Source of the DNA: Cellulomonas sp. JH27-2
GTDB taxonomy: Bacteria > Actinomycetota > Actinomycetes > Actinomycetales > Cellulomonadaceae
DNA length: 64,000 nt
Direction of reading: 5' to 3'
Assembly: GCF_014837175.1 (NCBI RefSeq)
Contig: NZ_JACYFR010000002.1
Location: 1-64,000, forward strand
Shown here: positions 44,224-62,672 of the stretch, one piece after another
Layout of the letters: the number at the start of each line of letters is the position of its first letter
How positions within the stretch are numbered: position 1 is the first letter of the stretch
Notes under the pieces: model-generated
Told to the model about the DNA's origin: nothing
Seen by the model: the letters and a program-made list of their open reading frames with translations, nothing else
Database searches by the model: none
Made by a program: the position numbers and the translations under genes

Positions 44224-44958
44224 ATGACCGCTCGTGACGCCGAGGCGCCCCAGGGCGCCGGCGCGAGCGAACTTCTCGAGAAGCTCGGGGTCCATCTGGA
44301 CCCCGAGCTTCTCGTGCTCGCCCTGACCCACCGGTCGTTCGCGCACGAGGCCGGTGGCATCCCGACGAACGAGCGGCTCGAGTTCCTGGGCGACACCGTG
44401 CTCGGCCTCGTCGTGACGGAGTCGCTGTACCGGACGCACGCAGACGAGCCGGAGGGCGCGCTCGCGAAGATGCGCGCGGCCACCGTCTCCCAGCGGGCGC
44501 TCGCGATCGTCGCGCGGGACCTCGACCTCGGCTCGTACGTGCTGCTCGGCAAGGGCGAGATCGCCACGGGCGGCGCGGACAAGGACTCGATCCTGTCCGA
44601 CACGCTCGAGGCGCTGTTCGGTGCGATCTACCTCTCGCACGGTCTCGAGGTCGCGCGCGGGGTCGTCGAGCGCCTCGTCGGCCCGTCCCTGGTGCGCGCT
44701 GCGGACCTGGGCGCCGGGCTCGACTGGAAGACGTCGCTGCAGGAGCTCGCCGCCGAGCTCGAGCTCGGCGCACCGCACTACGAGGTCACGGGCGAGGGCC
44801 CGGACCACGCCCGTACCTTCACGGCGCACGCCGTGGTGGGTGGCGAGGCCCGCGGCTCCGGGATAGGGACGGCCAAGAAGGTGGCCGAGCAGCAGGCGGC
44901 GGAGGCGGCGTACACGGCGCTCGAGCCGCTGCGGGCCGCGCGTCCCGCGTCGGCCTGA
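44224..44958 (+). CDS. rnc: Ribonuclease III
   Basis: The protein has 244 aa. The RNase III signature is [16 protein letters not shown], with a second acidic cluster [16 protein letters not shown] dsRNA-binding domain lies at about 165-240 ([22 protein letters not shown] and [21 protein letters not shown]). It cleaves double-stranded RNA in rRNA precursors and regulated mRNAs. ATG 44224 is 7 bp after rpmF. A perfect 17-bp hairpin lies within codons 19-31 and may be a self-cleavage site. Confidence 0.96.
44277..44314 (+). promoter_or_regulatory. Perfect 17-bp hairpin inside the rnc coding start
   Basis: CGAGAAGCTCGGGGTCC (44277-44293), loop ATCT, and the exact complement GGACCCCGAGCTTCTCG (44298-44314). 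The stem is uninterrupted and codes for [12 protein letters not shown]. RNase III genes are often autoregulated by cleavage of a stem in their own transcript, so this is a prime candidate site. Confidence 0.65.
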
Positions 44959-46817: not shown

Positions 46818-47486
46818 GTGTCCACCGTCAGCGCGCATGGCCAGGGTCCCGTCAGCGTCATGATCATCGACGACCACGAGGTGGTCCGTCGGGGGATCGC
46901 CGAGGTCGTCGAACGCGCGGACGGGATGACCGTCGTCGCCGAGGCCGGTACGGTCGCGGACGGCGTGCGCCGCGCCGAGCTCGTCCGCCCGCAGGTCCTG
47001 CTGGTCGACCTGCAGCTGCCGGACGGGACGGGCATCGACGTCCTGCGGCGGCTGCGCGAGATCCTGCCGGAGGCCCGCGCGATCGTCCTCACCTCGTTCG
47101 ACGACGACGACGCGCTCGCCGCCGCTCTCGAGGCCGGGGCGGCCGCCTACCTGCTCAAGTCGGTGCGCGGCGCTGAGATCACGGACGTCATCAAGGCGGT
47201 CGCGGCCGGGCGCGCCCTGCTCGACGAGCGGACCGTCACGCGTCGTCGTGCCGGCCACGACGACCCGACCGAGAACCTCACGCCCAGCGAGCTGCGCGTG
47301 CTCGACCTCATCGGCGAGGGCTTGTCCAACCGCGAGATCGCGGAGCGCCTGGGCGTCGCCGAGAAGACGGTGAAGAACCACATCACCTCGCTGCTGGCGA
47401 AGATGGGTCTCCAACGCCGCACCCAGGTGGCCGCGTGGGTGGCAGGCCACAAGCGCCAAGCCTGGCGCACGGACCCCACCCACTGA
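46818..47486 (+). CDS. NarL/FixJ response regulator, DevR (DosR)-like
   Basis: The protein has 222 aa. The receiver domain opens with VMIIDDHEVVRRGI and has the phosphoacceptor Asp64 in LLVDLQLPDG. The LuxR-type HTH at about 152-215 reads GEGLSNREIAERLGVAEKTVKNHITSLLAK..RRTQ. The blocks DDHEVVRRG, GRALLDERT and AEKTVKNHITSLLAK closely follow mycobacterial DevR/DosR, the hypoxia and NO regulator. No kinase gene is adjacent, but a DevS-like kinase lies 3.3 kb to the right, on the other strand. Confidence 0.85.
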   Translation: MSTVSAHGQGPVSVMIIDDHEVVRRGIAEVVERADGMTVVAEAGTVADGVRRAELVRPQVLLVDLQLPDGTGIDVLRRLREILPEARAIVLTSFDDDDALAAALEAGAAAYLLKSVRGAEITDVIKAVAAGRALLDERTVTRRRAGHDDPTENLTPSELRVLDLIGEGLSNREIAERLGVAEKTVKNHITSLLAKMGLQRRTQVAAWVAGHKRQAWRTDPTH

Positions 47487-48734: not shown

Positions 48735-50735
48735 TCAGGTCAGGGCGGCTGCGGTGGGATCCTGGTGGCGGAGGCGGTCGGCGACCTCCTGGACCAGCTC
48801 CTCCGTCTCCGGCTCGCCCTCGCCCCACTGGCCGACGACCTCGCGCAGCTGGCGCCGCTCGTTCTCGCGCAGCTCCTCGGCGATCGCGTCGCCTGCCGGG
48901 GTGGGGGTCGCGACGTCGTCCGTGAGCACGATCAGCCCGCGGTCGACGAGCTCGCCGGCGACCTCACGGATGCGCTCGATCGGCACGTGCGAGCGGTCGT
49001 GCATGACGGCCAGGGGCCGGGACCGTTCGCCGCTGACGCGGCTGAGCATCCAGCACTGGCCGGGCGTCAGGTCGATGTCGAGGTCGCGGTTGAGCAGGCC
49101 GTACGCCTTGAGGGGGTCCTGGCTGCCGACCTCCCGCCAGAGCATGAGCCTCAGCTCCTCGTAGGACGAGCGTCCGCCAGGTGCGCCGAACGCCTCGCTC
49201 GGCTCCGGAGTCGTCGCCCCCGTGCGCAAGGTGACCTCGGGGATGAGGAACGTCAGCACGAACGTCAGGACGCCGACCGGCACCGCCCACAGGAAGATCG
49301 TGTGGATGGAGTCGGAGTAGCCGTCGAGGAACCAGTTGATGACGTCGGGCCCGCACGCCCCGATGTTCTCGGAGGTCTGGGACAGCACGTCGGCGGAGCA
49401 ACCTGGTGCGGCTGCGCCGGCGGGCGGGTTCTGGGCCAACGTCGAGCTCAGGTGGGAGTTGAAGACCGTGCCGAACACCGCGACGCCCACGCTGCTGCCG
49501 ATGGTGCGGAAGAACGTGGCGCCGCTGGTCGCGGTCCCGAGGTCGCGGTACTCGACGGCGTTCTGCACGGCGAGGATCAGCACCTGCATGACGAGGCCCA
49601 GCCCGGCTCCCAGCACGAACATCGAGGCACCCGACTGGAGCGACGTGGTCTCACGACCCATGAGCGAGAGCAGGTACAGCCCGACCGTGAAGACGGCGCT
49701 GCCGACGATCGGGTAGATCTTGTAGCGGCCCGTGCGGCTGATGAGCTGGCCGCTGCCGATCGACGTGAGCAGCAGCCCGACCATCATCGGGATCATCTGC
49801 AGGCCCGAGCCCGTGGGCGACGCCCCCTGCACCGCCTGCAGGTACAGCGGCAGGTAGGTGATGGAGCCGAACATCGCGAAGCCGACGACGAAGCCCACGA
49901 TCGAGCAGGTGACGAACACGCAGTTGCGGAAGAGCCGCAGCGGCATGACGGGCTCGGGGACGCGCGCCTCGACGAACGCGAACGCGGCGATCGCGAGCAC
50001 CCCGAGGACCGAGAGCCCGATCACCTGGGGCCCTGCCCAGTCCCAGGTGGACCCGCCCAGGCTCGTGACGAGCACGATGCTCGTCGCCACGGTCGCCAGC
50101 AGCGTGATGCCGATGTAGTCGATCTTGGGCGACGTGCGTGCCTTCGTCACCGGGAGCACCGCAGTGACGACGACGAGCGCGACGGCACCGATCGGGAGAT
50201 TGATGTAGAAGACCCAGCGCCAGCCGATCGTGTCGACGAACAACCCGCCCAGCAACGGTCCCGCCACGCTCGACAGCCCGAAGACGGCGCCGAACGCCCC
50301 CTGGTACCGGCCGCGGTCCCGGGGCGGGACGACGTCGGCGATGATCGCCTGCGCGAGCACCATGAGACCGCCGCCGCCGACGCCCTGCACCGCCCGCCAC
50401 GCGATGAGCTGGCCCATGTTCTGCGAGGTGCCCGAGAGCGCGGAGCCCACCAGGAAGATGACGATGCACGTGATGAACAGCGTCTTGCGGCCATAGAGGT
50501 CGCCGAGCTTGCCCCACAGCGGCGTGGTGATGGTGGATGCCAGCATGTAGGACGTGACGACCCACGACAGGTGCTCGGCGCCGCCCAGGTCGCTCACGAT
50601 CTTGGGCAGGGCCGTCGCGACGATCGTCTGGTCGAGAGCCGCCAGCAGCATCGCGAGCATCAGGCCACCGAAGATGGTCCAGACGGCGCGTTGCGAGAGC
50701 TGGGTGGGTGCCTGCGGTTCTGCCTGCGCGGTCAT
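48735..50735 (-). CDS. DHA2-type MFS transporter with C-terminal MarR-like domain
   Basis: The protein has 666 aa from ATG 50735 (GGGGGA upstream). The first ~510 residues form a 14-helix drug/proton antiporter with motif A KLGDLYGRKTLF and the TM1 motif LDQTIVATALPKI. After the last helix there is a ~140-residue soluble tail with a MarR-like winged-helix pattern: LTPGQCWMLSRVSG, SHVPIERIREVAGELVDRGLIVLTDDVATPTPAG. The family is usually about 500 aa, so this is a transporter-regulator-like fusion. It follows the sensor kinase by 58 bp on the same strand and may belong to the cyd operon. Confidence 0.88.
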   Translation of the reverse strand: MTAQAEPQAPTQLSQRAVWTIFGGLMLAMLLAALDQTIVATALPKIVSDLGGAEHLSWVVTSYMLASTITTPLWGKLGDLYGRKTLFITCIVIFLVGSALSGTSQNMGQLIAWRAVQGVGGGGLMVLAQAIIADVVPPRDRGRYQGAFGAVFGLSSVAGPLLGGLFVDTIGWRWVFYINLPIGAVALVVVTAVLPVTKARTSPKIDYIGITLLATVATSIVLVTSLGGSTWDWAGPQVIGLSVLGVLAIAAFAFVEARVPEPVMPLRLFRNCVFVTCSIVGFVVGFAMFGSITYLPLYLQAVQGASPTGSGLQMIPMMVGLLLTSIGSGQLISRTGRYKIYPIVGSAVFTVGLYLLSLMGRETTSLQSGASMFVLGAGLGLVMQVLILAVQNAVEYRDLGTATSGATFFRTIGSSVGVAVFGTVFNSHLSSTLAQNPPAGAAAPGCSADVLSQTSENIGACGPDVINWFLDGYSDSIHTIFLWAVPVGVLTFVLTFLIPEVTLRTGATTPEPSEAFGAPGGRSSYEELRLMLWREVGSQDPLKAYGLLNRDLDIDLTPGQCWMLSRVSGERSRPLAVMHDRSHVPIERIREVAGELVDRGLIVLTDDVATPTPAGDAIAEELRENERRQLREVVGQWGEGEPETEELVQEVADRLRHQDPTAAALT

Positions 50736-50793
50736 CGAGTTCCCCCGTCTCGTCCCTCGCATCGTCGTGCAGGACAAACCGGGACGCAAGAGG

Positions 50794-52524
50794 TCAGAGC
50801 AGCGGAGCCTGCCAGGTCAGGAGCGTGCCGCGTGCCGTGGGTGCGGCGCCGATCGTGAACGTGCCGCCGTGCTGGCGCGCCCGGGCGGCGAGATTGCCGG
50901 TGCCGGACGCGCGGTCGCGACGCGCGGGGATGCCGACGCCGTCGTCGAGCACCTCCACCTGCACACGGCCCACGGGTCCGCGCCCGACGACGTCGACGCG
51001 GACGGCGACCGACGCGGCGTGCGCGTGCCGTGCGGCGTTGGCGAGCCCCTCGCGCACGACGGCCACGACGTCGTCGGTCGTGGCGGCGTCGACGCGCTCG
51101 TCGAGCAGGTCCTCGTCGAGGCCGTCGTCGGACAGCACCCGCCCGTCGAGCGTCACGACGAGCGACGGCGCGAAGCCCAGCCCCGTCCGGGCGAGCGACG
51201 CCTCGCGGCGCAGCCGCTCGACGAGACCCGTCGCGGCGTCGGGGTCGCGCAACGCGTGCACGATCTGGCGGATCTGCTTGACCGACGAGTCCACGTTGTC
51301 GAGGGCCTCGTCGAGGATCGTCGTCAGGTCGACCGGAGCGACGCCGTCCGCGGCCCGGCGGCGGACGGTCTCGAGCTGCATGCCGGTGGCGAACAGCTGC
51401 TGGATCGCGAGGTCGTGCAGGTCGCGGGCGATGCGGGCTCGCTCGTCGAACAGCGCGGCGATGTCCTGTGCGTGCCTCGCCTCGGCCAGCACGTACGCGA
51501 GCGCGGCCTGGCTCGCGAACGTCTCGGCCGTGGTCAGGTCGCGTTCGTCGAACGGCGCCCGGCCGTTGCGGCGCAGCAGGATCAGCACGCCGACGCCGCG
51601 GCCCGAGGCCTGCAGCGGTGTGAACATGGCGGGCCCGAACGACCGCATGGCCTCGAGCCGCACGGTGCGCGACCGGGACAACGACGGCGTCTGAAGCCCG
51701 CGGCCCTCGCGCATCACCGTCCAGGCGCGGCCCCCCTCGGGCATCTGCTCACCCACCAGACGGTCGGCGTCCTGCCCGTCGGCCAGCTCGATGTACAGCG
51801 CCCCGCCCACGCCGGGCAGGGCCAGCGCGGCCGTGTCGGCCCCGGCCACCTCGCGCGCCGTGGCCGCGATGCGTTCCAGGGCCTCCTCCTCGTCGACGCC
51901 CTCGAGCAGCATGGTCGCGATGTCCTGACCGGCCTGCAGCCAGTGCTCGCGCCGTGCCGCCTCCGCGTAGAGCTGCGCGTTGGAGACGGCGACGCCCGCG
52001 GCGGCGGCCAGCGCGAGCACGATGCGCTCGTCGGCCGGTGTGAACCCCCCGTCCTTCTCCGACAGGTAGAGCTGGCCGAAGACGTGATCCGCGACGCGCA
52101 CGGATGCTCCCAGGAAGGAGCCCATGGGCGGGTGCTCGGCGGGGAAGCCGCGGAACGCGGGGTGGTCGGTCAGGTCGGCGAGCCGCAGGGCGCCCTCGCG
52201 GGGGATGCGGCCCAGGACCCCCTGCGCGTGCGGGGCGTGCCCCATCATCCGTGCCAGGGCCGTGGGGATGCCGGTGTAGACGAACATCGTGGAGGCACCG
52301 TGCTGGTCCAGCACGTTGATCGCGCCGTACCGCGCGCCCGTCAGGTCGGCACTGACCTGCACGAACCGGTTGAGCACCGCGGTGAGGTCCAGCTCGCTCG
52401 CCACCGCCAGGATCGCCTCGAGCACGTCCTGCAGCGCGTCGCCCGTCACGTGCAAGGGCTCGGCGTCGACCTCGGTGAGCGTTCCGTCCCGGAACGGTGC
52501 ACCGGGGTGCCGGTCGGGGCTCAC
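50794..52524 (-). CDS. Tandem-GAF sensor histidine kinase, DevS/DosT-like
   Basis: The protein has 576 aa from GTG 52524. GAF-A (about 45-185) contains GFPAEHPPMGSFLGASVRV, where His131 aligns with the proximal haem ligand of mycobacterial DevS (PPYHPPM). GAF-B follows (about 200-350). The HisKA_3 box DERARIARDLHDLAIQQLF has phospho-acceptor His370. HATPase_c closes the protein (REGLANAARHA, DDGVGI). DevS and DosT sense O2, NO or CO through haem. It starts in a 4-bp overlap with cydC, so the sensor is co-translated with the cytochrome bd genes. No receiver gene is adjacent. Confidence 0.9.
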   Translation of the reverse strand: MSPDRHPGAPFRDGTLTEVDAEPLHVTGDALQDVLEAILAVASELDLTAVLNRFVQVSADLTGARYGAINVLDQHGASTMFVYTGIPTALARMMGHAPHAQGVLGRIPREGALRLADLTDHPAFRGFPAEHPPMGSFLGASVRVADHVFGQLYLSEKDGGFTPADERIVLALAAAAGVAVSNAQLYAEAARREHWLQAGQDIATMLLEGVDEEEALERIAATAREVAGADTAALALPGVGGALYIELADGQDADRLVGEQMPEGGRAWTVMREGRGLQTPSLSRSRTVRLEAMRSFGPAMFTPLQASGRGVGVLILLRRNGRAPFDERDLTTAETFASQAALAYVLAEARHAQDIAALFDERARIARDLHDLAIQQLFATGMQLETVRRRAADGVAPVDLTTILDEALDNVDSSVKQIRQIVHALRDPDAATGLVERLRREASLARTGLGFAPSLVVTLDGRVLSDDGLDEDLLDERVDAATTDDVVAVVREGLANAARHAHAASVAVRVDVVGRGPVGRVQVEVLDDGVGIPARRDRASGTGNLAARARQHGGTFTIGAAPTARGTLLTWQAPLL

Positions 52525-54305
52525 GCGTCCTCCGTCTGCTGGGTGCGTTCCTGGGCGAGGTCGTCACGGTAGCGCGCGTCGCGGGCGACGAGGTCGGCGT
52601 GCGTCCCGCGTGCCGCGACGCGCCCGCCGTCGAGCCGGATCACCTCGTCGGCCGCGGCGAGCGGCGTGAGGCGGTGGGTCACGACGACGACTCCGCGATC
52701 GCGGTGCTCGGTGAGCAGGCGGCGCACCAGCTCGTCGGCGGTCGTGGGGTCGACGTGCTCGGCCGGTTCGTCGACGAGCAGCAGCGGCGCCGGTGCCAGC
52801 AGGGCGCGGGCCAGAAGGAGTCGGCGCCGCTCGCCGCCGGACAGCGTGCGGCCGTCGGGGCCCAGCAGCGTCTCGACGCCCTCGGGCAGGCCCGCGAGCC
52901 ACGTGCCGAGCCCGGCGTGCGCGAGCGCGTCCGCGGCCTCGTCGGGCGTCACATCACCGCGGGCCACACGCAGGTTCTCCAACACCGTGGTGCCGAACAC
53001 GTAGCCGTCCTCGGCGACGTGCACGACGCTCGCGGCGGGCCGCGCCACCTCGTGGAGATCGGTACCGCCCAACCGCACGGATCCTCCGCCCGCGGGCAGC
53101 AGACCCGCGAGCGTCAGCAGCAGGGTCGTCTTGCCCGTGCCGCTGGGGCCGACGACGGCCACCGCGCTGCCGGGGCGCACGTCGAGGTCGAGATCGCGCA
53201 CGACGGGCGCGGCGCCGTCCCAGCCGGCGACGAGGTCGCGCGCGACGAGGACGGGCTCGGCCGGCGTCAGCCCAGGGACCGGAACCTCGGGCCCGGCGGC
53301 GTCGAGCAGCGCGAGGATCCGCGCTGCTGCGGCGCGCGAGCGGTGCACCTGGACGGCAGCGGCGGGCAGGAGGGCGGCTGCCTCGAACGCCGCGAGCGGG
53401 GTGAGCACGATGACGGCGAGCTCGACGGGCGCCAGCCGGCCGGCGGTCACCGCGGGGACGCCCGTGAGCAGCGCGGCCAGGACGGCGAGACCGACGGCGG
53501 CCTGACCGAGCGCCGCAGCGAGCGCGGCGCTCGGGGCGCCGCGATCGGTCGCCGCGGCCACGGAGCGGTCCGCGGCGCGCAGGACGTCGAGCTCGATGGC
53601 GGTGCGGCCGGCCACCGCCAGCGGACCCGCGTCGTCGAGCAGGCCGAGCGCGGTGGCGCTCGAGCGGGCCCGGCCCTCGGCGGCCTCGCGTTCGGTGGTC
53701 CGCGACCCCGCGGCGGCCAGCGCGGGCGCGACGACGCCGGCGAGCACCAGGCACGCGGCGAGCGCCAGCCCCGCCGGCGGCCAGAACAGGCTCATCGCGA
53801 CGGTCGTCCCGACGCCGAGCGCTGCGGCGACCGCGGCGGGCAGCAGACCGCGCACCACGACGTCGCCGACCGCGTCGACGTCCGCGCCCACGCGCGTCAG
53901 CAGGTCGCCGCGGCGCACGGCCATCAGCGCGGCCGGCTGCCCCACCGAGAGGCGCGCGTAGAGCATGGTGCGCAGCGTCGTCATGCCCCGCAGCGCGACG
54001 TCGTGCGACACCAGTCGCTCGCAGTAGCGCAGCACGCCGCGCCCGATGCCGAACGCCCGCACGGCGACCGTCGCGACGCTGAGGGTGAGCACCGGCGGCA
54101 TCTGGGACGCCCGCGCGATCAACCAGGCGGCCACGGCGGCCAGCGCCACCGCGCAGCCGAGCGCGGCGGTGCCGAGCGCGACGGCCTGGACGGCTCGGCG
54201 CCGGTCGACGTCGAGGAGCGCCACCGCGCGCCGCAACGTCCCACGGGGCGTGGCGCTGCGCGCGTCGTCGTGCAGCCCGTCGGGCACCTCGCCAGGCACG
54301 GTCAC
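52521..54305 (-). CDS. cydC: Cytochrome bd assembly ABC exporter subunit CydC
   Basis: The protein has 594 aa. An N-terminal six-helix ABC export domain is followed by the nucleotide-binding domain (Walker A VVGPSGTGKTTLL, signature LSGGERRR, Walker B LLLVDEP). With CydD it exports thiols and supports haem insertion needed for cytochrome bd. The start GTG overlaps the cydD stop and the stop overlaps the kinase gene start, so cydD, cydC and the kinase are tightly coupled. Confidence 0.93.
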   Translation of the reverse strand: MTVPGEVPDGLHDDARSATPRGTLRRAVALLDVDRRRAVQAVALGTAALGCAVALAAVAAWLIARASQMPPVLTLSVATVAVRAFGIGRGVLRYCERLVSHDVALRGMTTLRTMLYARLSVGQPAALMAVRRGDLLTRVGADVDAVGDVVVRGLLPAAVAAALGVGTTVAMSLFWPPAGLALAACLVLAGVVAPALAAAGSRTTEREAAEGRARSSATALGLLDDAGPLAVAGRTAIELDVLRAADRSVAAATDRGAPSAALAAALGQAAVGLAVLAALLTGVPAVTAGRLAPVELAVIVLTPLAAFEAAALLPAAAVQVHRSRAAAARILALLDAAGPEVPVPGLTPAEPVLVARDLVAGWDGAAPVVRDLDLDVRPGSAVAVVGPSGTGKTTLLLTLAGLLPAGGGSVRLGGTDLHEVARPAASVVHVAEDGYVFGTTVLENLRVARGDVTPDEAADALAHAGLGTWLAGLPEGVETLLGPDGRTLSGGERRRLLLARALLAPAPLLLVDEPAEHVDPTTADELVRRLLTEHRDRGVVVVTHRLTPLAAADEVIRLDGGRVAARGTHADLVARDARYRDDLAQERTQQTEDA

Positions 54306-55960
54306 CGGCCCACCTCCGCGTGGGCCTGGTGCGGGAGGTCGGCGGGCGCCACCACGACGACGTCGTCCGCGCAGGCCAGCAGCGACGCGCGGTGAGCGAC
54401 GAGCACCACCGCGCGCCCGGCGGCGCGCATGGCACGGACGGTCTCCAGCACCACGCGCTCACCGGCCGCGTCGAGGTGTGCGGTCGGCTCGTCGAGCACG
54501 ACGAGCGGGGCGGGGGAGAGCAGCGCCCGGGTCAGTGCGACGCGCTGGCGCTGTCCGACGGACAGCCCGTCCCCGCCGCGGCCGAGCGTGGTCGCCCATC
54601 CGTCCGGGAGTCCGTCGACGACGGCGTCCAGGCCCGTCACCTCGGCCGCGGCGGCGCGCGCGTCGTCGGCGCCGCCCACCACCTCGAGCAGCGTGCCCGG
54701 CTCGAGGACGGGTCGCTGCGGCAGCCAGGTGACCTGCGCCCAGTACGTGGCGCGCGTGACGTCGGCGAGCGCGATGCGGTCGTCGTCGGCGTGCAGCACC
54801 ACGCCGCCCTCGTCGGGCGCGAGCAGACCCAGCAGCACGTCGACGGCGGTCGACTTCCCACCACCGCTCGGTCCCGTCAGGGCCAGGACACGGCCCGGTC
54901 GCACCACGGCGTCCAGCCGGTAGGGGGTCCGGCCCACGCTCACGCCGCGCAGCTCGATCGTCGACGAAGCGAGGTCGGGTGCGACGCGTGTGCCGTCGGG
55001 GCGCAGGGGCACGTCGAGGATCGCGAACGCCTGCTCGGCGGCCGCGACGCCGTCGCTCGCCGCGTGGAACTGCGCCCCCACCTGCCGCAACGGGTTGAAC
55101 ACCTCGGGCGCCAGCACCAGCACCGCCAGCCCCGTCACGAGGGACAGCTCGCCCTCCACGAGCCGCAGCCCGATCCCCACCGCGACGAGCGCCACCGACA
55201 GCGTGGTCAGCAGCTCGAGCACCATGCCGGACAGGAAGGCGATCCGCAGCGTGCCCATCGTCGCCCGCCGGTGCGCGTCGCCCAGAGCCTGCACCCGCGA
55301 CGCGGGGCCCCGCTCGCGGCCGAACGCCCGCAGCGTCGGCAGGCCGGCCAACAGGTCGAGGGTCTGGCTGCCGAGGCGGCGCATGGTCGCCAGGCCGCGC
55401 TCCGAGCGACCCTGCGTGAGGCGCCCGACGAGCCACATGAAGATCGGCACGAGCGGCAGCACCACCACGAGGATCGCGGCGGAGACCCAGTCGAGGCCGA
55501 GGACCACCAGCAGGGTCGCGGGCGTGACGGTGGCGGCCAGCAGCAGCTGCGGCAGGTAGCGCACGAAGTAGGGCTCGAGGTCGTCCAGCCCGCGGGTGGC
55601 CAGCGTCGCGACACCGGGCCCCTCCCCGCCGGCGAGCCAGCGCGGGCCGAGTGCCGCGGCGTGCGCGACGACGGCCTCGCGCAGCTCGGCGACCGCGCGG
55701 GTCGCGGCGCGGTGGGCGAACCGCTCCTGCACGTAGGTCGTCGCCGCACGCAGGGCGACGACGACCGCCAGCCAGCCGACGAGCGGCGCGATGGTCGCGA
55801 GGTCGGCGCCGTCGTGCACCGCACGGCCCAGCGCGTGCGCGAGCAGGACCGCCTGCCCGACGACCAGCGCGGCGGTCACGATGCCGAGCGCGGCCGTGAG
55901 CGCGACGTACCCGCGCGCCGCGTGCGCGTGCCGCAGCAGGCGGGGGTCGAGCGGCCTCAT
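54302..55960 (-). CDS. cydD: Cytochrome bd assembly ABC exporter subunit CydD
   Basis: The protein has 552 aa. The transmembrane exporter domain (1-310) includes the CydD block FVRYLPQLLLAATVTPATL and QTLDLLAGLPTLRAFGRE. The ATPase domain has Walker A LTGPSGGGKSTAV, signature LSVGQRQRVALTRAL and Walker B LVVLDEPTAHLD. It partners CydC. Start ATG 55960, 13 bp after cydB. The order A-B-D-C matches mycobacteria. Confidence 0.94.
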   Translation of the reverse strand: MRPLDPRLLRHAHAARGYVALTAALGIVTAALVVGQAVLLAHALGRAVHDGADLATIAPLVGWLAVVVALRAATTYVQERFAHRAATRAVAELREAVVAHAAALGPRWLAGGEGPGVATLATRGLDDLEPYFVRYLPQLLLAATVTPATLLVVLGLDWVSAAILVVVLPLVPIFMWLVGRLTQGRSERGLATMRRLGSQTLDLLAGLPTLRAFGRERGPASRVQALGDAHRRATMGTLRIAFLSGMVLELLTTLSVALVAVGIGLRLVEGELSLVTGLAVLVLAPEVFNPLRQVGAQFHAASDGVAAAEQAFAILDVPLRPDGTRVAPDLASSTIELRGVSVGRTPYRLDAVVRPGRVLALTGPSGGGKSTAVDVLLGLLAPDEGGVVLHADDDRIALADVTRATYWAQVTWLPQRPVLEPGTLLEVVGGADDARAAAAEVTGLDAVVDGLPDGWATTLGRGGDGLSVGQRQRVALTRALLSPAPLVVLDEPTAHLDAAGERVVLETVRAMRAAGRAVVLVAHRASLLACADDVVVVAPADLPHQAHAEVGR

Positions 55961-55973
55961 GCGGTGGCGGTCC

Positions 55974-57035
55974 TCACCGCTCCTGGGTGCCCGCGTCGGC
56001 CGTCGGTCGCTCGAACGTCAGGCCGATGGACTCGGGGATGTGATCCGCCGAGATGCGCTTGCGGAACACCCAGTACGTCCACCCCTGGTAGAGCAGCACC
56101 AGCGGCGTGAGGATCACCGCGACCCAGGTCATGACCGTCAGCGTGTAGTGCGTCGACGACGCGTTGGTGGTGGTCAGCGAGTTGGCGGAGTCGAACGCGG
56201 GCATCACGTCCGGGAACAGCGAGCCGAAGATCAGCACGACCGCGGCGACGAGGGTGACGGCCGACGCGACGAAGGCGAGCCCCTCGCGGCGGGTGCGGGT
56301 CGCGGCGACGAGCAGCACGAGCGCGACCGCGGCGACCGCGACGGCGGCCCAGGTCCAGCCGCTCTCGCTGTAGGCGACCTGCGCCCAGATCGCCCACGCG
56401 GCGGCGACGACGAGCGTCACCGGTGCCAGGCGGGCGCCGAGCCTCGCGGCCCGGTCGCGCACCTCGCCGGCTGACTTCAGCCCCAGGAACACGGCACCGT
56501 GCGTGAGGAACAGCAGCGCCGTCGTCGCGCCGCCCAGCAGCGCGAACGGGTTGAGCAGCGCCCAGAAGCCGCCCACGTACTGGTGGTCGGTGTCCAGCTC
56601 GACGCCGCGGACGATGTTCGCGAAGGCCACGCCCCACAGCACGGCCGGCACCCAGGACCCGACGATGAGCGCCCGGTCGGCCCAGGCGCGCCACCGGTCG
56701 TCGTCGATCTTGCCCCGCCACTCGAACGCGACGACGCGCACGATGAGGGCGAGCAGGATGAGCAGGAGCGGCAGGTAGAAGCCCGAGAACAGCGTCGCGT
56801 ACCACTCGGGGAACGCCGCGAAGGTCGCGCCGCCGGCGGTCAGCAGCCACACCTCGTTGCCGTCCCACACGGGGCCGATGGTGTTGATCATGACGCGGCG
56901 CTCGCGCTCGCGCCCCGGGCCGCGGTGCGGCAGCAGACCCAGCAGCATCCCGACGCCGAAGTCGAATCCCTCGAGCACCAGGTAACCCGTCCACAGGACG
57001 GCGATGAGGATGAACCAGACGGTGGTCAGCTCCAT
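55974..57035 (-). CDS. cydB: Cytochrome bd ubiquinol/menaquinol oxidase subunit II
   Basis: The protein has 353 aa with about nine membrane helices. Typical CydB blocks are LWTGYLVLEGFDFGVGML, GPVWDGNEVWLLTAGGATFAAFPEWYA and the C-terminal YQGWTYWVFRKR. It is the structural partner of CydA in the high-affinity terminal oxidase. A 12-bp gap separates it from cydA. Confidence 0.96.
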   Translation of the reverse strand: MELTTVWFILIAVLWTGYLVLEGFDFGVGMLLGLLPHRGPGRERERRVMINTIGPVWDGNEVWLLTAGGATFAAFPEWYATLFSGFYLPLLLILLALIVRVVAFEWRGKIDDDRWRAWADRALIVGSWVPAVLWGVAFANIVRGVELDTDHQYVGGFWALLNPFALLGGATTALLFLTHGAVFLGLKSAGEVRDRAARLGARLAPVTLVVAAAWAIWAQVAYSESGWTWAAVAVAAVALVLLVAATRTRREGLAFVASAVTLVAAVVLIFGSLFPDVMPAFDSANSLTTTNASSTHYTLTVMTWVAVILTPLVLLYQGWTYWVFRKRISADHIPESIGLTFERPTADAGTQER

Positions 57036-57047
57036 GGTCGTCTCCTG

Positions 57048-58535
57048 TCAGTACGCGAAGGACAGCGGGCGGTCGGCGTCGTCGTCGGTGCGCGCCTCGG
57101 GACTGGGGTCCTTCTCCGAGGGGGCGACGCCCTCGATCGTGTAGCGGTGCATGAGGCGGTACCAGACCACCGCGAGCACGCCGTAGAGGAGCGTGAACGC
57201 GATGAGGGACGTGAGCACGCCGCCGGCGCCGGGGACCACGGACACGCCGCGGGCCGTGATCAGCCACACGCCGTCCACGCCGGACGGGTCGGGGTTGGGC
57301 GCGACGACCCAGGGTTGGCGCCCCATCTCCGTGAAGATCCACCCGAACGACGACGCGAGGAACGGCGTCGCGATGGCGGCGATGCCGAGCGTGCCGAACC
57401 ACTTCTTGTCCGTCACGCGCCCCTTGCGGGTCAGCCACAGCGCGGCGAGCGCGAGCGCCGCGGACCCGATGCCGAAGCCGATCATGAGGCGGAAGCCCCA
57501 GTACGTCACGGTCAGGTCGGGCTGGTAGGAGATCGGGTCGCCGTTCTCGTCGGTGTACCCGTACTTCTGCTCGTACTCGGCCTGCAGATCGTGCACGCCC
57601 TGCAGCGTGGCGTTGAAGTCGTCGGTCGCGAGGAAGCTCGTCAGGCCCGGGATCGAGATGAGGTGCTTGACGTTGTCGCAGTCGTTGGACAGGTTCCCGA
57701 TCGCCAGGATCGAGAAGTCCGCGCCCGAGGTCGTGCTGCACAGCGCCTCGGCGGAGGCCATCTTCATGGGCTGCTGCTTGAACATGAGCTTGGCCTGGGC
57801 GTCGCCGGAGATCGCGACCCCGACCCCGCCGACGAGCATCACGATCATGCCCAGCACCACCGCCGGTCGGTAGACGTCCTTCGCGGTTGCGAGGTCGCCC
57901 CGCCGCACGAGCTTGACCATCCACCAGGCGCCGATGCCGGCGACGAAGGTGCCGGCCGTCACGAACGCGGCGGTGATGGTGTGCGGGAACGCTGCCAGGA
58001 CGGTCGGGTTGGTCAGGACGGCGCCGATGTCGTTCATCTCCGCGCGGCCGGTCTTCTCGTTGAAGACCGCGCCCACCGGGTGCTGCATCCACGAGTTCGC
58101 GGCCAGGATGAAGTAGGCAGACAGGTTGGTCGCGATCGCGACCGCCCAGATGCACGCGAGATGGATCTTCTTGGGCAGCTTGTCCCAGCCGAAGATCCAC
58201 AGCCCCAGGAACGTCGACTCGACGAAGAACGCGGCCAGTGCCTCCATGGCCAGCGGTGCCCCGAAGACGTCGCCGACGAACCGCGAGTACTCGCTCCAGG
58301 CCATGCCGAACTGGAACTCCTGCACGATGCCCGTGGCCACGCCGATGGCGAAGTTGATGAGCAGGAGCTTGCCGAAGAACTTGGTCAGGCGCAGCCAGCG
58401 CTCGTTGCCGGTGCGCACCCACGCCGTCTGCATGATCGCGACCATCGGCGACAGGCCGATCGTCAGCGGCACGAAGATGAAGTGGTAGACGGTGGTGATG
58501 CCGAACTGCCAGCGGGACAGGGCGAGTGCGTCCAC
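57048..58535 (-). CDS. cydA: Cytochrome bd ubiquinol/menaquinol oxidase subunit I
   Basis: The protein has 495 aa from GTG 58535 (CGGAG upstream). It carries the three haems. His18 (TTVYHF) and His185 (AAFPHT) align with axial ligands, and the axial Met lies in FRLMIGFG. The Q-loop is short (CydA-S type) and contains Cys266 and Cys286, a pair reported as a disulfide in mycobacterial enzymes. GRQPW is intact. It oxidises menaquinol at very low oxygen. The promoter carries a DevR-box-like palindrome. Confidence 0.96.
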   Translation of the reverse strand: MDALALSRWQFGITTVYHFIFVPLTIGLSPMVAIMQTAWVRTGNERWLRLTKFFGKLLLINFAIGVATGIVQEFQFGMAWSEYSRFVGDVFGAPLAMEALAAFFVESTFLGLWIFGWDKLPKKIHLACIWAVAIATNLSAYFILAANSWMQHPVGAVFNEKTGRAEMNDIGAVLTNPTVLAAFPHTITAAFVTAGTFVAGIGAWWMVKLVRRGDLATAKDVYRPAVVLGMIVMLVGGVGVAISGDAQAKLMFKQQPMKMASAEALCSTTSGADFSILAIGNLSNDCDNVKHLISIPGLTSFLATDDFNATLQGVHDLQAEYEQKYGYTDENGDPISYQPDLTVTYWGFRLMIGFGIGSAALALAALWLTRKGRVTDKKWFGTLGIAAIATPFLASSFGWIFTEMGRQPWVVAPNPDPSGVDGVWLITARGVSVVPGAGGVLTSLIAFTLLYGVLAVVWYRLMHRYTIEGVAPSEKDPSPEARTDDDADRPLSFAY

Positions 58536-58599
58536 GAGATCTCCGAGCGGGAGTGCGAGCCGGGAAGTAAGTCCATCCGCGACCGGCGGACCTGGGGGA

Positions 58600-58605
58600 A
58601 CGCTA
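58600..58605 (-). promoter_or_regulatory. Predicted -10 of the cyd operon
   Basis: On the minus strand this reads TAGCGT (TANNNT). Transcription would start near 58593. The sequence 17 bp upstream (TGGGTA) is a poor -35 and lies within the palindrome at 58622-58647, as expected for an activator-dependent promoter. Confidence 0.5.
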
Positions 58606-58621
58606 GGACAAGACCCAGTCT

Positions 58622-58647
58622 GTACCCAGGACCAAGGTCCCGGGTAC
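58622..58647. promoter_or_regulatory. DevR/DosR-box-like 26-bp palindrome upstream of cydA
   Basis: Left arm GTACCCAGGACC, centre AA, right arm GGTCCCGGGTAC. The two arms are complementary except for one position. The core GGACC-AA-GGTCCC fits the DosR consensus core GGGACT-WW-AGTCCC. The centre (58634.5) is about 41.5 bp upstream of the predicted start, where class II activators and DevR bind. Confidence 0.65.
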
Positions 58648-59030
58648 TGACACGGCGTCGGATCGTTGCGGGAGACGGCCGACGAGACCGTGGACGCGGT
58701 GGTGCTCGCGGCGCGAGCGCACGTGATGGGCGGTTGGCGGGCTTCGTGCGGGTCCCTGTGCGATACTGACGACGGTTCGCCAGGCGCCCACACCGTCCGG
58801 TAGACCCGTGAGCTCGCAGCATCGCCCGCGTCGCGTGCGCCAGCCGCCGCCCGACAGTTCGTCAGGCCCCCGATCGGGGCCGGGACCGGTCAGGCAGGCG
58901 ATGGCCCCGGCCAGGTGCAGCAGCCATGACCGACGACTTCCGTCGCCACGTTCCGGCGTGAGCGACGACCGACCCACCACGGGTCACCAGATGTGTGGGT
59001 GGTGATTCGTGGTACCCAGGAGCACCTCGC
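58648..59030. other. Divergent spacer between cydA and RNase E/G, 5' leader of rne
   Basis: No gene is recognised. The sequence from the cyd palindrome to the rne start is GC-rich and non-coding in character. A small hairpin (GGCCCC 58865-58870 with GGGGCC 58876-58881) lies about 150 nt before rne. No convincing -10/-35 pair for rne was found, so its promoter and leader length are undefined. Confidence 0.4.
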
Positions 59031-59033
59031 GTG

Positions 59034-62000
59034 ATGTCCGACAACACCTCCGAGTCCGCAGCAACCACGACGGGCGGGGGTGAGACGTCGCCCGCACCGG
59101 CGCGCCGTCGTCGCGCCACCCGCGGCGCCGCTGCCCCGGACGCGGTGACCAGCACCTCAGCACCCTCGACCCCGGCACCTTCGCACAGCGGCGCGTCGCA
59201 GGCCGACGCGGCCTCGACCGAGGCCGCACCCAAGAAGGCCCCCGCGAAGCGCGCGTCGCGGGCGAAGGCCCCGAAGAGCGAGCCGGTCGACGTGCCCGCG
59301 GTCGCGCCGGCGACGGTCGAGGCGTCGGCCCCCGCGCAGGACGCCGCCGGCGAGGACGACCAGCGTCCCCGCCGCACGCGCAGCCGCCGCAAGCCCGCGG
59401 ATGCCGAGCTGGGCGCGGACGGGGCCGAGCAGGCTCCCGGTTCGCCCGACGTCCCGGCCTCGGACACCGCGCCCGCAGCCGACGAGACGCCCGCCGCGCG
59501 CACCAAGGCGCCGCGCAAGCGTGCGACCCGTGCGGCCGCGAGCCCGGACGCGAGCGCCGCGAAGCCGTCGTCCGAGGTGTCGACGCCTGAGCCGAGCGAC
59601 GCCGACGGCGCTCAGGGGAACGCAGTCGAGACGAACGCAGCCGAGGCGACGGCGGCAGAGCCGAAGAGGGCCCCGGCCAAGCGCCGGCGTGCCAGCTCGC
59701 GCCCCGCCGCGGCACCCTTCGAGCCGGTGGTCGACGAGGAGGAGGACGAGACGACGGCTGACGCCGCCGCGGCCCCCGCCCTCGACGTCCTCGCCGAGCT
59801 CGCGGGCACGACCGGTTCGACCGCTGCGACGACGGCGGCGGACGCGTCGGCCCCTGCCCCCGCGACCACCGCACCCCGCGGCACGTCGCCGCGGCTCGCC
59901 ACGACGGCGTTGCTGTTCCAGGCGCCGGACGCCACCGCGACGCGACCGCGTCGACGCCGTGCGACGTCGAGCGCCGGTTCGCCCGAGGCCATCTCCGAGG
60001 CGGCGCGCACCGAGCGTGAGCAGGAGGAAGCGCCCTCGTCGAGTGCGAACCAGGCGCAGGACCAGCCGACCGAGAACGAGTCGCGGCCGTCGGGTCGCTC
60101 CTCGCGTCGGCGCGGGCGTCGCGGCCGCGGTGGCGAGCCGCCGGCGGCGAGCACGGACGAGCAGGACGCGTCGACCGACGAGGTCGCCGCCGACGCCGAC
60201 GAGGCCGTCACCGAGGACCAGGTCCTGGACGCCGACGTCGAGCAGGACGCCGCGGGCGAGGACTCCGGTGAGGGCACCGACGCGACGGAGACCGACGAGG
60301 ACGCGAACGACTCTGCCCCGCGTCGCCGCCGTCGCCGCGGCGGCCGTGGTCGTCGTCGGCCCGACCAGGCGGACGGCTCCACGGACGGCGACGAGACCGA
60401 CGACGAGCAGGAGCCCGAGCAGGACGAGTCGGGCGACGAGGACGCCGAGGAGGGCGACGGCGGCGAGCAGGGCTCGTCGAGCCGCCGTCGTCGGCGTCGG
60501 CGCCGTGGCTCGTCGCGCTCCGGTGACGGGGAGGGCGAGCCGCGCTCGCGCTCGCGCAGCGCCGGCGACGAAGTCACCGCGCTGCGTGGTTCGACGCGGC
60601 TCGAGGCCAAGCGTCAGCGCCGCCGCGAGGGGCGCGACGCGGGTCGTCGTCGTCAGATCATCACCGAGGCCGAGTTCCTGGCGCGCCGCGAGTCGGTCGA
60701 CCGCTCGATGGTCGTGCGCGAGCGTGGCGGGCGCACGCAGATCGCCGTGCTCGAGGACGGGGTGCTCGTCGAGCACTACGTGTCGAACCAGGCGTCCGCG
60801 TCGGTCGTCGGGAACGTCTACCTGGGCCGCGTCCAGAACGTGCTGCCCAGCATGGAGGCCGCGTTCGTCGACGTCGGCAAGGGCCGCAACGCCGTGCTCT
60901 ACGCGGGCGAGGTCAACTGGGACGCCGCTCACGTCGAGGGTGGCAGCGCCCGCCGCATCGAGCAGGCCCTCAAGTCGGGCGACTCGGTGCTCGTGCAGGT
61001 GACCAAGGACCCGATCGGGCACAAGGGTGCGCGTCTGACGTCGCAGGTGACGCTCGCGGGCCGCTACCTCGTGTACGTGCCCGGCGGCGGCATGACCGGC
61101 ATCAGCCGCAAGCTTCCCGACGTGGAGCGCAACCGCCTGAAGAAGATCCTGCGCGAGGTCGTCCCCGAGTCGGCCGGCGTCATCGTGCGCACGGCCGCCG
61201 AGGGCGCGTCCGAGGACGAGCTGCGCGCCGACATCGCCCGCCTGCAGTCGCAGTGGGAGGCCATCGAGAAGAAGTCGAAGACCGCGTCCGCGCCCGCCCT
61301 GCTGCAGGGCGAGCCGGACATGGCGATCCGCGTGGTCCGCGACATCTTCAACGACGACTTCGGCTCGCTGATCGTCCAGGGCGACGAGGCGTGGTCGACG
61401 ATCTCGACGTACATCGACGAGCTCGCACCCGACCTGGCGCAGAAGGTCACCAAGTACACCGGGACGGGCGACGTCTTCGCTGCCCACCGGATCGACGAGC
61501 AGCTCGCCAAGGGCATGGACCGCAAGGTCTGGCTGCCGTCGGGCGGCTCGCTGGTCATCGACCGCACCGAGGCGATGACGGTCGTCGACGTCAACACGGG
61601 AAAGTTCACCGGCTCGGGCGGCACGCTCGAGGAGACGGTCACGCGCAACAACCTGGAGGCGGCCGAGGAGATCGTCCGCCAGCTCCGGCTGCGCGACATC
61701 GGCGGCATGATCGTCGTCGACTTCATCGACATGGTGCTCGAGTCCAACCGCGACCTGGTGCTGCGCCGCCTGGTCGAGTGCCTGGGCCGCGACCGCACCA
61801 AGCACCAGGTCGCCGAGGTCACGTCGCTCGGCCTGGTCCAGATGACGCGCAAGCGCGTCGGCCAGGGTCTGGTCGAGGCGTTCTCCGAGACGTGCGAGCA
61901 CTGCCACGGGCGCGGCTTCATCGTGCACGACGAGCCGATCGAGAAGAACGGTCGTCCCGACGCGGGTGCCGCGCAGCCGGCGGCCGACGCGTCGGGTGAC

Positions 62001-62672
62001 GCGAAGCGGTCGCGCCGCAAGCGCGGGGGAGCGGCCAAGGAGCCCGCCACCACGACGCCGCACGCGGGTGTCCCGGTCCTGCCGGAGGCCCGAGAGGCCG
62101 TCAAGGCGACGCTCGCGACGATCGCGGCCGCGGCGGCGCACGCGCACGAGCACGACCATGAGCACGACCACGAGCACGGCGGCGAGGCTCACGCTGCGCC
62201 GGCGACCGCCGACGTGGCTCCGCGTGACGAGAGCGCGTCGGTCGTCCAGGAGGAGGCCGTCACGGTGCTCCAGGACGAGGTCGACGGGATCGTCGTGGTC
62301 GAGGACGAGACCGTCACGGTTGTCGAGGACCACGGTGCGTTCGTCGTGGACGACGACGTCGTCACGCTCGTCGACGACGGCAGCGGTGAGGTCGTCGTGG
62401 ACGAGCAGGACTCGGTGGTCGTGATCGAGAGCGAGCCCGACGCGCCTCGGGCGCGGGCGACGCTCGATGTCTTCGCCGAGCTCGCGGCACGCGGGGCGCT
62501 CGCCCCGTCAGCGGCGGCCGCCGACGCGGGGGCGGACGTCGAGCTCGAGCTCACGCCCGTCGCCGCCGACCTGTTCGAGGCGCACGAGGCCGACGACGCG
62601 GACGGTGCCGGCGAGCAGGCCGACGAGCGGTCGGGCGACGATCCGGCGTCCGACGAGAACCCGCAGGGCTGA
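59034..62672 (+). CDS. rne: Ribonuclease E/G with long disordered extensions
   Basis: The protein has 1212 aa from ATG 59034 (AGGAG at 59018-59022; GTG 59031 also possible). Residues 1-540 are disordered with alternating acidic and Arg-rich clusters ([30 protein letters not shown]). The catalytic core (about 550-970) has an S1 domain, the metal ligands Asp852 (VDVNTG) and Asp896 (VVDFIDM), and the zinc-link CEHCHG at 954-957. The C-terminal ~250 residues include a His/Asp/Glu tract and an acidic Val-rich repeat. It initiates mRNA decay and rRNA processing. Confidence 0.93.

Follow-up and report, generated by a model that had tools for sequence, protein, structure and literature searches.

The DNA analysed here, hereafter the window, is a stretch of 64,000 nucleotides from a 3.73-Mb genome. 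Judged by cydA, its closest named relatives belong to Cellulomonas (C. humilata, 83%). The features that bear on the argument are collected in Table 1. The genes for the two cytochrome bd subunits are followed by cydD, cydC and, in fifth place, a gene for a DevS-like kinase; the first two junctions are gaps of 12 and 13 bases, and at each of the other two the genes overlap by 4 bases. Given these short gaps and overlaps, cydA to the kinase gene very probably form one operon. The gene of a DevR-like response regulator runs convergent to this operon. The intergenic region that separates cydA from the divergent RNase E/G gene contains an imperfect palindrome; the distance from it down to the predicted GTG start of cydA is 87 bp. 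The palindrome had been described in an earlier note, which was silent on the DevS-like kinase and on further targets.

Table 1. Genes and predicted regulatory features of the window.
Feature	Coordinates	Strand	Basis
Receiver-GerE response regulator, DevR-like, predicted binder of the box	46818-47486 (predicted start codon)	+	Domain scan, nearest solved structure, contact residues
Transporter gene between kinase and regulator	48735-50789		
GAF-GAF-HisKA_3-HATPase kinase, DevS-like, 4-base overlap with cydC	50794-52524	-	Domain scan; His131 and Tyr153 align with DosS His149 and Tyr171
cydC	52521-54305	-	NCBIfam TIGR02868 above cut-off
cydD	54302-55960	-	NCBIfam TIGR02857 above cut-off
cydB, cytochrome bd subunit II	55974-57035	-	Pfam PF02322, E 5.5e-109
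cydA, cytochrome bd subunit I	57048-58535	-	Pfam PF01654, E 3.3e-160
Predicted cydA -10 element TAGCGT; predicted start 58593	58600-58605	-	TANNNT spacing in 25/25 same-genus box promoters
TGGGTA, poor -35 hexamer, touches the box	58623-58628	-	Read 17 bp upstream of the -10
Imperfect palindrome, 26 bp, one arm pair mismatched	58622-58647		Read from the window letters
Conserved 14-bp core, predicted DevR-type operator (GGGACCTTGGTCCT on the - strand)	58628-58641		51/81 cydA loci; 25/29 same-genus genomes (one at 8/10)
RNase E/G gene, divergent from cydA	58995-62672		

The palindrome reads GTACCCAGGACC-AA-GGTCCCGGGTAC and is centred at 58634.5. Its description in the earlier note agrees with the letters: the arms are complementary at all but one position (11 of 12 arm pairs match), and counting the first T of the minus-strand TAGCGT as -12 gives the start in Table 1 and places the box centre at -41.5. 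The -35 was called poor, and the hexamer found there indeed agrees with TTGACA at 3 of 6 positions. With the mycobacterial DosR core GGGAC-N4-GTCCC is shared, and 9 of the 12 specified positions of the mycobacterial motif GGGACTTNNGNCCCT, as given in the accessible text of PMC6448022, agree by a count made by eye; the centre of the core differs, with C..G here in place of T..A. The palindrome alone was rejected as evidence of significance, as such palindromes are unremarkable in this window: those of 12+2+12 form that have no more than one mismatch number 7, against a mean of 1.5 and a maximum of 4 in 40 shuffles. One at 44283-44308 is perfect. A search of 58536-58994 for the Rex- or CRP-like pattern TGTGAN6TCACA with up to three mismatches found none.

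We searched the 300 bp upstream of cydA in 81 loci, 80 from genome contigs and the window itself. The pattern GGGACNNNNGTCCC (GGGACN4GTCCC) is present at 9 or more of its 10 positions in 51 of them, and perfectly in 30. Shuffled controls gave a mean of 3.75 loci and a maximum of 9, 19 permuted arrangements of the half-sites gave 0-12 loci, and a box was present in 76 of the 4840 further 300-nt stretches taken from the same loci. The box occurs in 12 of 15 Cellulomonadaceae-type loci, 5 of 6 from Demequina and one MAG, 25 of 30 from Pseudonocardiaceae, 2 of 7 from Promicromonosporaceae, 2 of 16 from Mycobacteriales and 4 of 5 others, where the assignment of genera to families is our own assumption. 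The single Streptomyces cydA locus has no box at 9 or more positions. Among 30 same-genus genomes, cydA was matched in 29 (all except G011); 24 of these have the box at 9 or more positions and one (G026) at 8, compared with 0-4 for permuted half-sites. It is the 14-bp core that is conserved in relatives, and not the outer arms. The earlier note had named lack of conservation in relatives as a ground for refuting its reading, and the reading passes this check; together with a regulator at 46818 that is nearest to DevR, these counts support a DevR/DosR-type reading of the site. Conservation argues strongly that the cydA site is real.

Outside the core, the triplet CAG stands at a fixed distance, 8 bp upstream of it, in most same-genus cydA promoters. 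Upstream of cydA in Cellulosimicrobium funkei (L045), a locus with no linked kinase, the DevR-type box is adjoined by TTGTGAACATAGTCACAA, which we take to be a Rex-like site. Expression of cydA and cydB in Cellulomonas fimi Clb-11 is reported to be downregulated by Cr(VI) in the accessible part of PMC10251745.

The geometry of the promoter is conserved together with the box. The box centre and a TANNNT are 30-32 bp apart in all 25 same-genus box promoters (30 bp in 21 genomes, 31 in two, 32 in two), which places the box at about -41.5 to -43.5 from the predicted starts. On these starts, a proximal box overlapping the -35 some 42 bp upstream of the start is present in 25 of 25. Pairs of boxes whose proximal member overlaps the -35 have been described in M. 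tuberculosis (PMC3029386, accessible text). A second box is found 22-24 bp away in 18 of the 25 Pseudonocardiaceae box loci, and a TANNNT at matching distance in 12 of 25, typically 55 bp after the first box and hence about 32 after the second. None of the box loci of Promicromonosporaceae and Mycobacteriales has a TANNNT at those distances. Conservation and fixed spacing make it extremely unlikely that the site is a chance palindrome or a terminator with no regulatory role. The window has several palindromes as long as this one, and by eye two similar sites next to rpoC resemble a terminator, but the cydA site lies between divergent genes and is kept in Pseudonocardiaceae loci in which no RNase E gene turned up alongside.

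The best solved relative of the linked regulator, which has a NarL-type receiver and a GerE domain, is DevR (E 3.7e-50; 88 of 200 aligned residues identical), followed by VraR (4.4e-38); the haem-response regulator ChrA scores 3.9e-28. All 43 linked regulators, that of the window included, retain K179, K182 and N183, the residues with which DosR contacts DNA according to the accessible text of PMC5999986. Among 19 GerE places in the genome, K[TS][VI]KN belongs to this regulator only, and the next regulator in the genome is about 40% identical. The palindrome is very probably bound by this regulator, as judged from its similarity to DevR and the conserved contacts. No site of 8 or more positions was found upstream of the regulator's own gene, and a box of 9 or more precedes the regulator gene in 2 of 30 genus loci.

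The kinase matches the GAF-A domain of DevS (E 2.6e-33) and the ATPase domains of DevS and DosT, and shares with these proteins an architecture of two GAF domains, HisKA_3 and HATPase. In DosS, His149 is the haem ligand and Tyr171 is needed to tell gases apart, according to the accessible text of PMC4082495. Both residues have aligned counterparts in the window kinase, and the position of Glu87 is occupied by Asn. The aligned haem histidine is present in 11 of 12 Cellulomonadaceae-type kinases, L073 being the exception, and in 32 of 47 kinases overall, a count taken from an alignment that is unreliable outside two-GAF kinases. HPP[ML] occurs in 16 of the 47. The one Pseudonocardiaceae kinase that was scanned has a single GAF domain rather than two. 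The sensor half thus differs, although both the regulator and its box are conserved. As the Pseudonocardiaceae kinases mostly lack a haem-type GAF, the signal may differ there.

Box and kinase are also linked across families. Among the 67 loci that extend 8 kb or more beyond the cydA start (13 of 80 loci were shorter and left out), 38 have both box and kinase, 16 have neither, 6 have a box without a kinase, and 7 have a kinase without a box of 9 or more positions. This linkage to cyd recurs in Cellulomonadaceae, Demequina and Pseudonocardiaceae; C. humilata ATCC 25174 (L039), a harmless laboratory strain, has the box, the kinase and the regulator. Kinase or regulator was found near cydA in none of 14 long Mycobacteriales loci, which agrees with the induction of cyd without DevR described for M. 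smegmatis in the accessible part of PMC7739888. Within the genus, a kinase is near the regulator in 21 of 27 loci that extend at most 1.5 kb to either side, whereas in the window the transporter gene stands between the two.

A match of at least 82% to the regulator is present in 27 of the 30 same-genus genomes. No linked orthologue was found in G004, G021 and G023, and all three have no cydA box. The box is present in 25 of the 26 genomes with both orthologue and cydA, the exception being G017. The four box-less genomes may be close relatives, so this joint absence is suggestive only. Fisher values of 6.8e-6 (for the box and kinase table above) and 0.0011 likewise overstate independence because the loci come from related species. 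In G001, G004, G017, G021, G023 and G029, another DevR-like regulator (about 47-51% identity) is encoded some 2-6 kb from a box-bearing gene for a small membrane protein.

The strict pattern RGGACNWWNGTCCY matches the genome at exactly four places, against one in the reversed control. These lie before cydA, nrdD (Pfam NRDD), ctaC (Pfam COX2) and the gene of a small protein of 192 residues, a membrane protein by its look, for which no Pfam or NCBIfam match was found. Of the looser patterns, GGGACN4GTCCC with one mismatch gives 278 matches against 145 in the control, and RGGACCWWSGTCCY with one mismatch was uninformative as a measure of enrichment (27 forward, 21 reversed). Two sites beside rpoC (C1:23791, 23842), the terminator-like pair mentioned above, were set aside, and further sites lie before lipA, gpmA and ctaE.

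The strict targets other than cydA were also followed through the genus. A box of 9 or more positions precedes nrdD in 19 of 22 genomes (permuted half-sites, 0-6), a count that leaves out eight of the 30, seven with only a distant match and one with none. In 11 of 20 nrdD rows the box centre is 30 bp away from a TAGA, as in the cydA promoters. Just 3' of the nrdD -10, a conserved stretch like CCACATCTTGTG bears a resemblance to an NrdR box. The small membrane-protein gene has the box in 12 of 15 distinct upstream regions (0-3 permuted; 15 of 18 loci before three repeats of the same region were removed). A weaker site in the window's own genome led to xfp, which has the box in 16 of 30 genomes against 0-4 for permuted half-sites.

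The box before ctaC is arranged differently. It is present at 9 or more positions in 22 of 29 same-genus genomes and at 8 or more in all 29 (G003 left out; permuted half-sites, 0-3), and box and -10 are the best-conserved blocks of the upstream region. In each of 28 rows the box centre is preceded by a TANNNT at a distance of 22-24 bp, and none was found in the 56 bp downstream; region limits reduced 31 rows, two of them from the order sample, to these 28. With T at -12, the box would span about +4 to +17 from the predicted start. A protein bound just downstream of the -10 should block transcription, to judge from position. That the ctaC box activates or is neutral, leaving no two-way switch, we consider somewhat unlikely; the start is predicted and the direction of regulation is read from the place of the box only, but the position of the TANNNT, upstream in every row, points to repression. 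Among the 29 genomes of the order sample, 23 have ctaC and 4 of these have an upstream box at 9 or more positions, namely the window's own genome, one family member, G041, and L224, in which the site is a stray far upstream; a second family member reaches 8. Because the site is limited to the family and a single genome outside it, the ctaC operator appears to be a trait of the lineage.

Two results count against a simple account with a single regulator. G017 has the regulator without a cydA box, and G004, G021 and G023 keep the ctaC box (with one core letter changed in G021) while missing the linked orthologue. The second relative of about 50% identity could serve the ctaC box in those three genomes. 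It is nevertheless improbable that the box is mainly bound by another response regulator and that the linked pair serves something else. No other GerE place in the window's genome has K[TS][VI]KN, and the next regulator there reaches only about 40% identity; box and linked kinase co-occur across families; and the cydA box is missing exactly in the orthologue-less genomes plus G017.

The linked regulator thus remains our preferred binder of the box, and we take the DevS-like kinase at the end of the cyd operon as its most likely partner. In the mechanism that we propose, the kinase would hold haem in its first GAF domain, as its conserved residues suggest, and falling oxygen would lead it to phosphorylate the regulator. 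A regulator dimer on the box at -41.5, the place of a class II activator, would touch the poor -35 and recruit RNA polymerase to cydABDC and the kinase gene. As the kinase gene lies within the operon, activation should also raise the amount of sensor. The gene for the anaerobic ribonucleotide reductase, nrdD, would be activated from a box at the same distance, and xfp, for phosphoketolase, is probably served by its box too. At ctaC, which encodes subunit II of the aa3 oxidase, the regulator would repress from +4 to +17, and the net outcome would be an exchange of aa3 for bd oxidase. We regard this account as a whole, with its DevR-type operator, linked regulator and kinase, low-oxygen activation of cyd and nrdD and repression of ctaC, as probable on the genomic evidence. 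The box, its spacing and conservation, the linkage and the set of targets can be read from the sequence itself; binding, signal, phosphotransfer and the direction of regulation are inferred from them.

The signal is the part for which a live alternative exists, since HrrSA acts at both oxidase branches: the two-component regulator HrrA has binding sites upstream of ctaE, ctaC and cydABDC (PMC7337898, accessible text). The pair described here might then respond not to oxygen but to haem, redox state or nitric oxide, and coordinate the oxidase branches in the manner of HrrSA. The Asn at the Glu87 position and the differing sensor halves of the families would fit such a reading, and DosS itself has been debated as a gas or a redox sensor (PMC4082495, accessible part). 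We hold it unlikely: DevR is a nearer relative of the regulator than ChrA is, the GAF-A domain of the kinase is of the DevS type and carries both the haem ligand and the Tyr171 equivalent, and nrdD encodes an anaerobic enzyme.

DevR/DosR has been studied mostly as a mycobacterial dormancy regulator; here the same type of pair appears wired to the choice of terminal oxidase. A broader proposal, to which we give an even chance, is that this DevR-type regulator serves chiefly to switch respiration in both directions and not to govern dormancy, activating the bd oxidase and nrdD and repressing aa3, to judge from where the boxes lie. Regulator and cyd box would have been kept while the sensor was swapped across families, with a two-GAF haem kinase in Cellulomonadaceae and Demequina and a short single-GAF kinase in Pseudonocardiaceae, and with Mycobacteriales standing outside the linkage. 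If the proposed wiring is correct, few targets and a fixed promoter geometry would make this harmless genus a tractable case for activation by DevR-family regulators, and perhaps for repression at ctaC, and it would bear on the role of such pairs before they became dormancy regulators. A literature search, thin on subscription journals, returned no DevR box before cyd, no cyd-linked DevS and no ctaC operator. DevR-type pairs outside mycobacteria are already known, OsdR of Streptomyces being an example (PMC5069765, accessible text).

Several known systems resemble the one described here. Rex, ArcA and Fnr control oxidase switches in which a low-affinity oxidase is exchanged for a high-affinity one at low oxygen; the predicted exchange is alike, and the regulators and sites are different. 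HrrSA of Corynebacterium glutamicum is likewise a two-component system acting at both oxidase branches, ctaC and cydABDC (PMC7337898, accessible text), but is haem-responsive and activates both. The regulator of the window is a nearer relative of DevR than of ChrA, which was used for the comparison in place of HrrA. OsdR/OsdK of Streptomyces coelicolor is a DevR-type pair outside mycobacteria with an overlapping regulon, whereas its consensus, AGGGCCGATCGGCCCT, differs from the box here; the main text of PMC5069765 contains no word beginning with 'cyd'. DevR/DosR with DevS/DosT of mycobacteria comes nearest. Regulator and kinase are closest to DevR and DevS among solved structures, the DNA-contact residues and the GGGAC-N4-GTCCC core are kept, and a proximal box lies at the -35 in both (PMC3029386, accessible text). 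Unlike DevR, which is autoregulated, the regulator here has no box before its own gene. The strict sites are few, with C..G rather than T..A at the core centre, and one of them is a predicted repressor site at ctaC. The pair is linked to cyd, which M. smegmatis induces without DevR (PMC7739888, accessible part).
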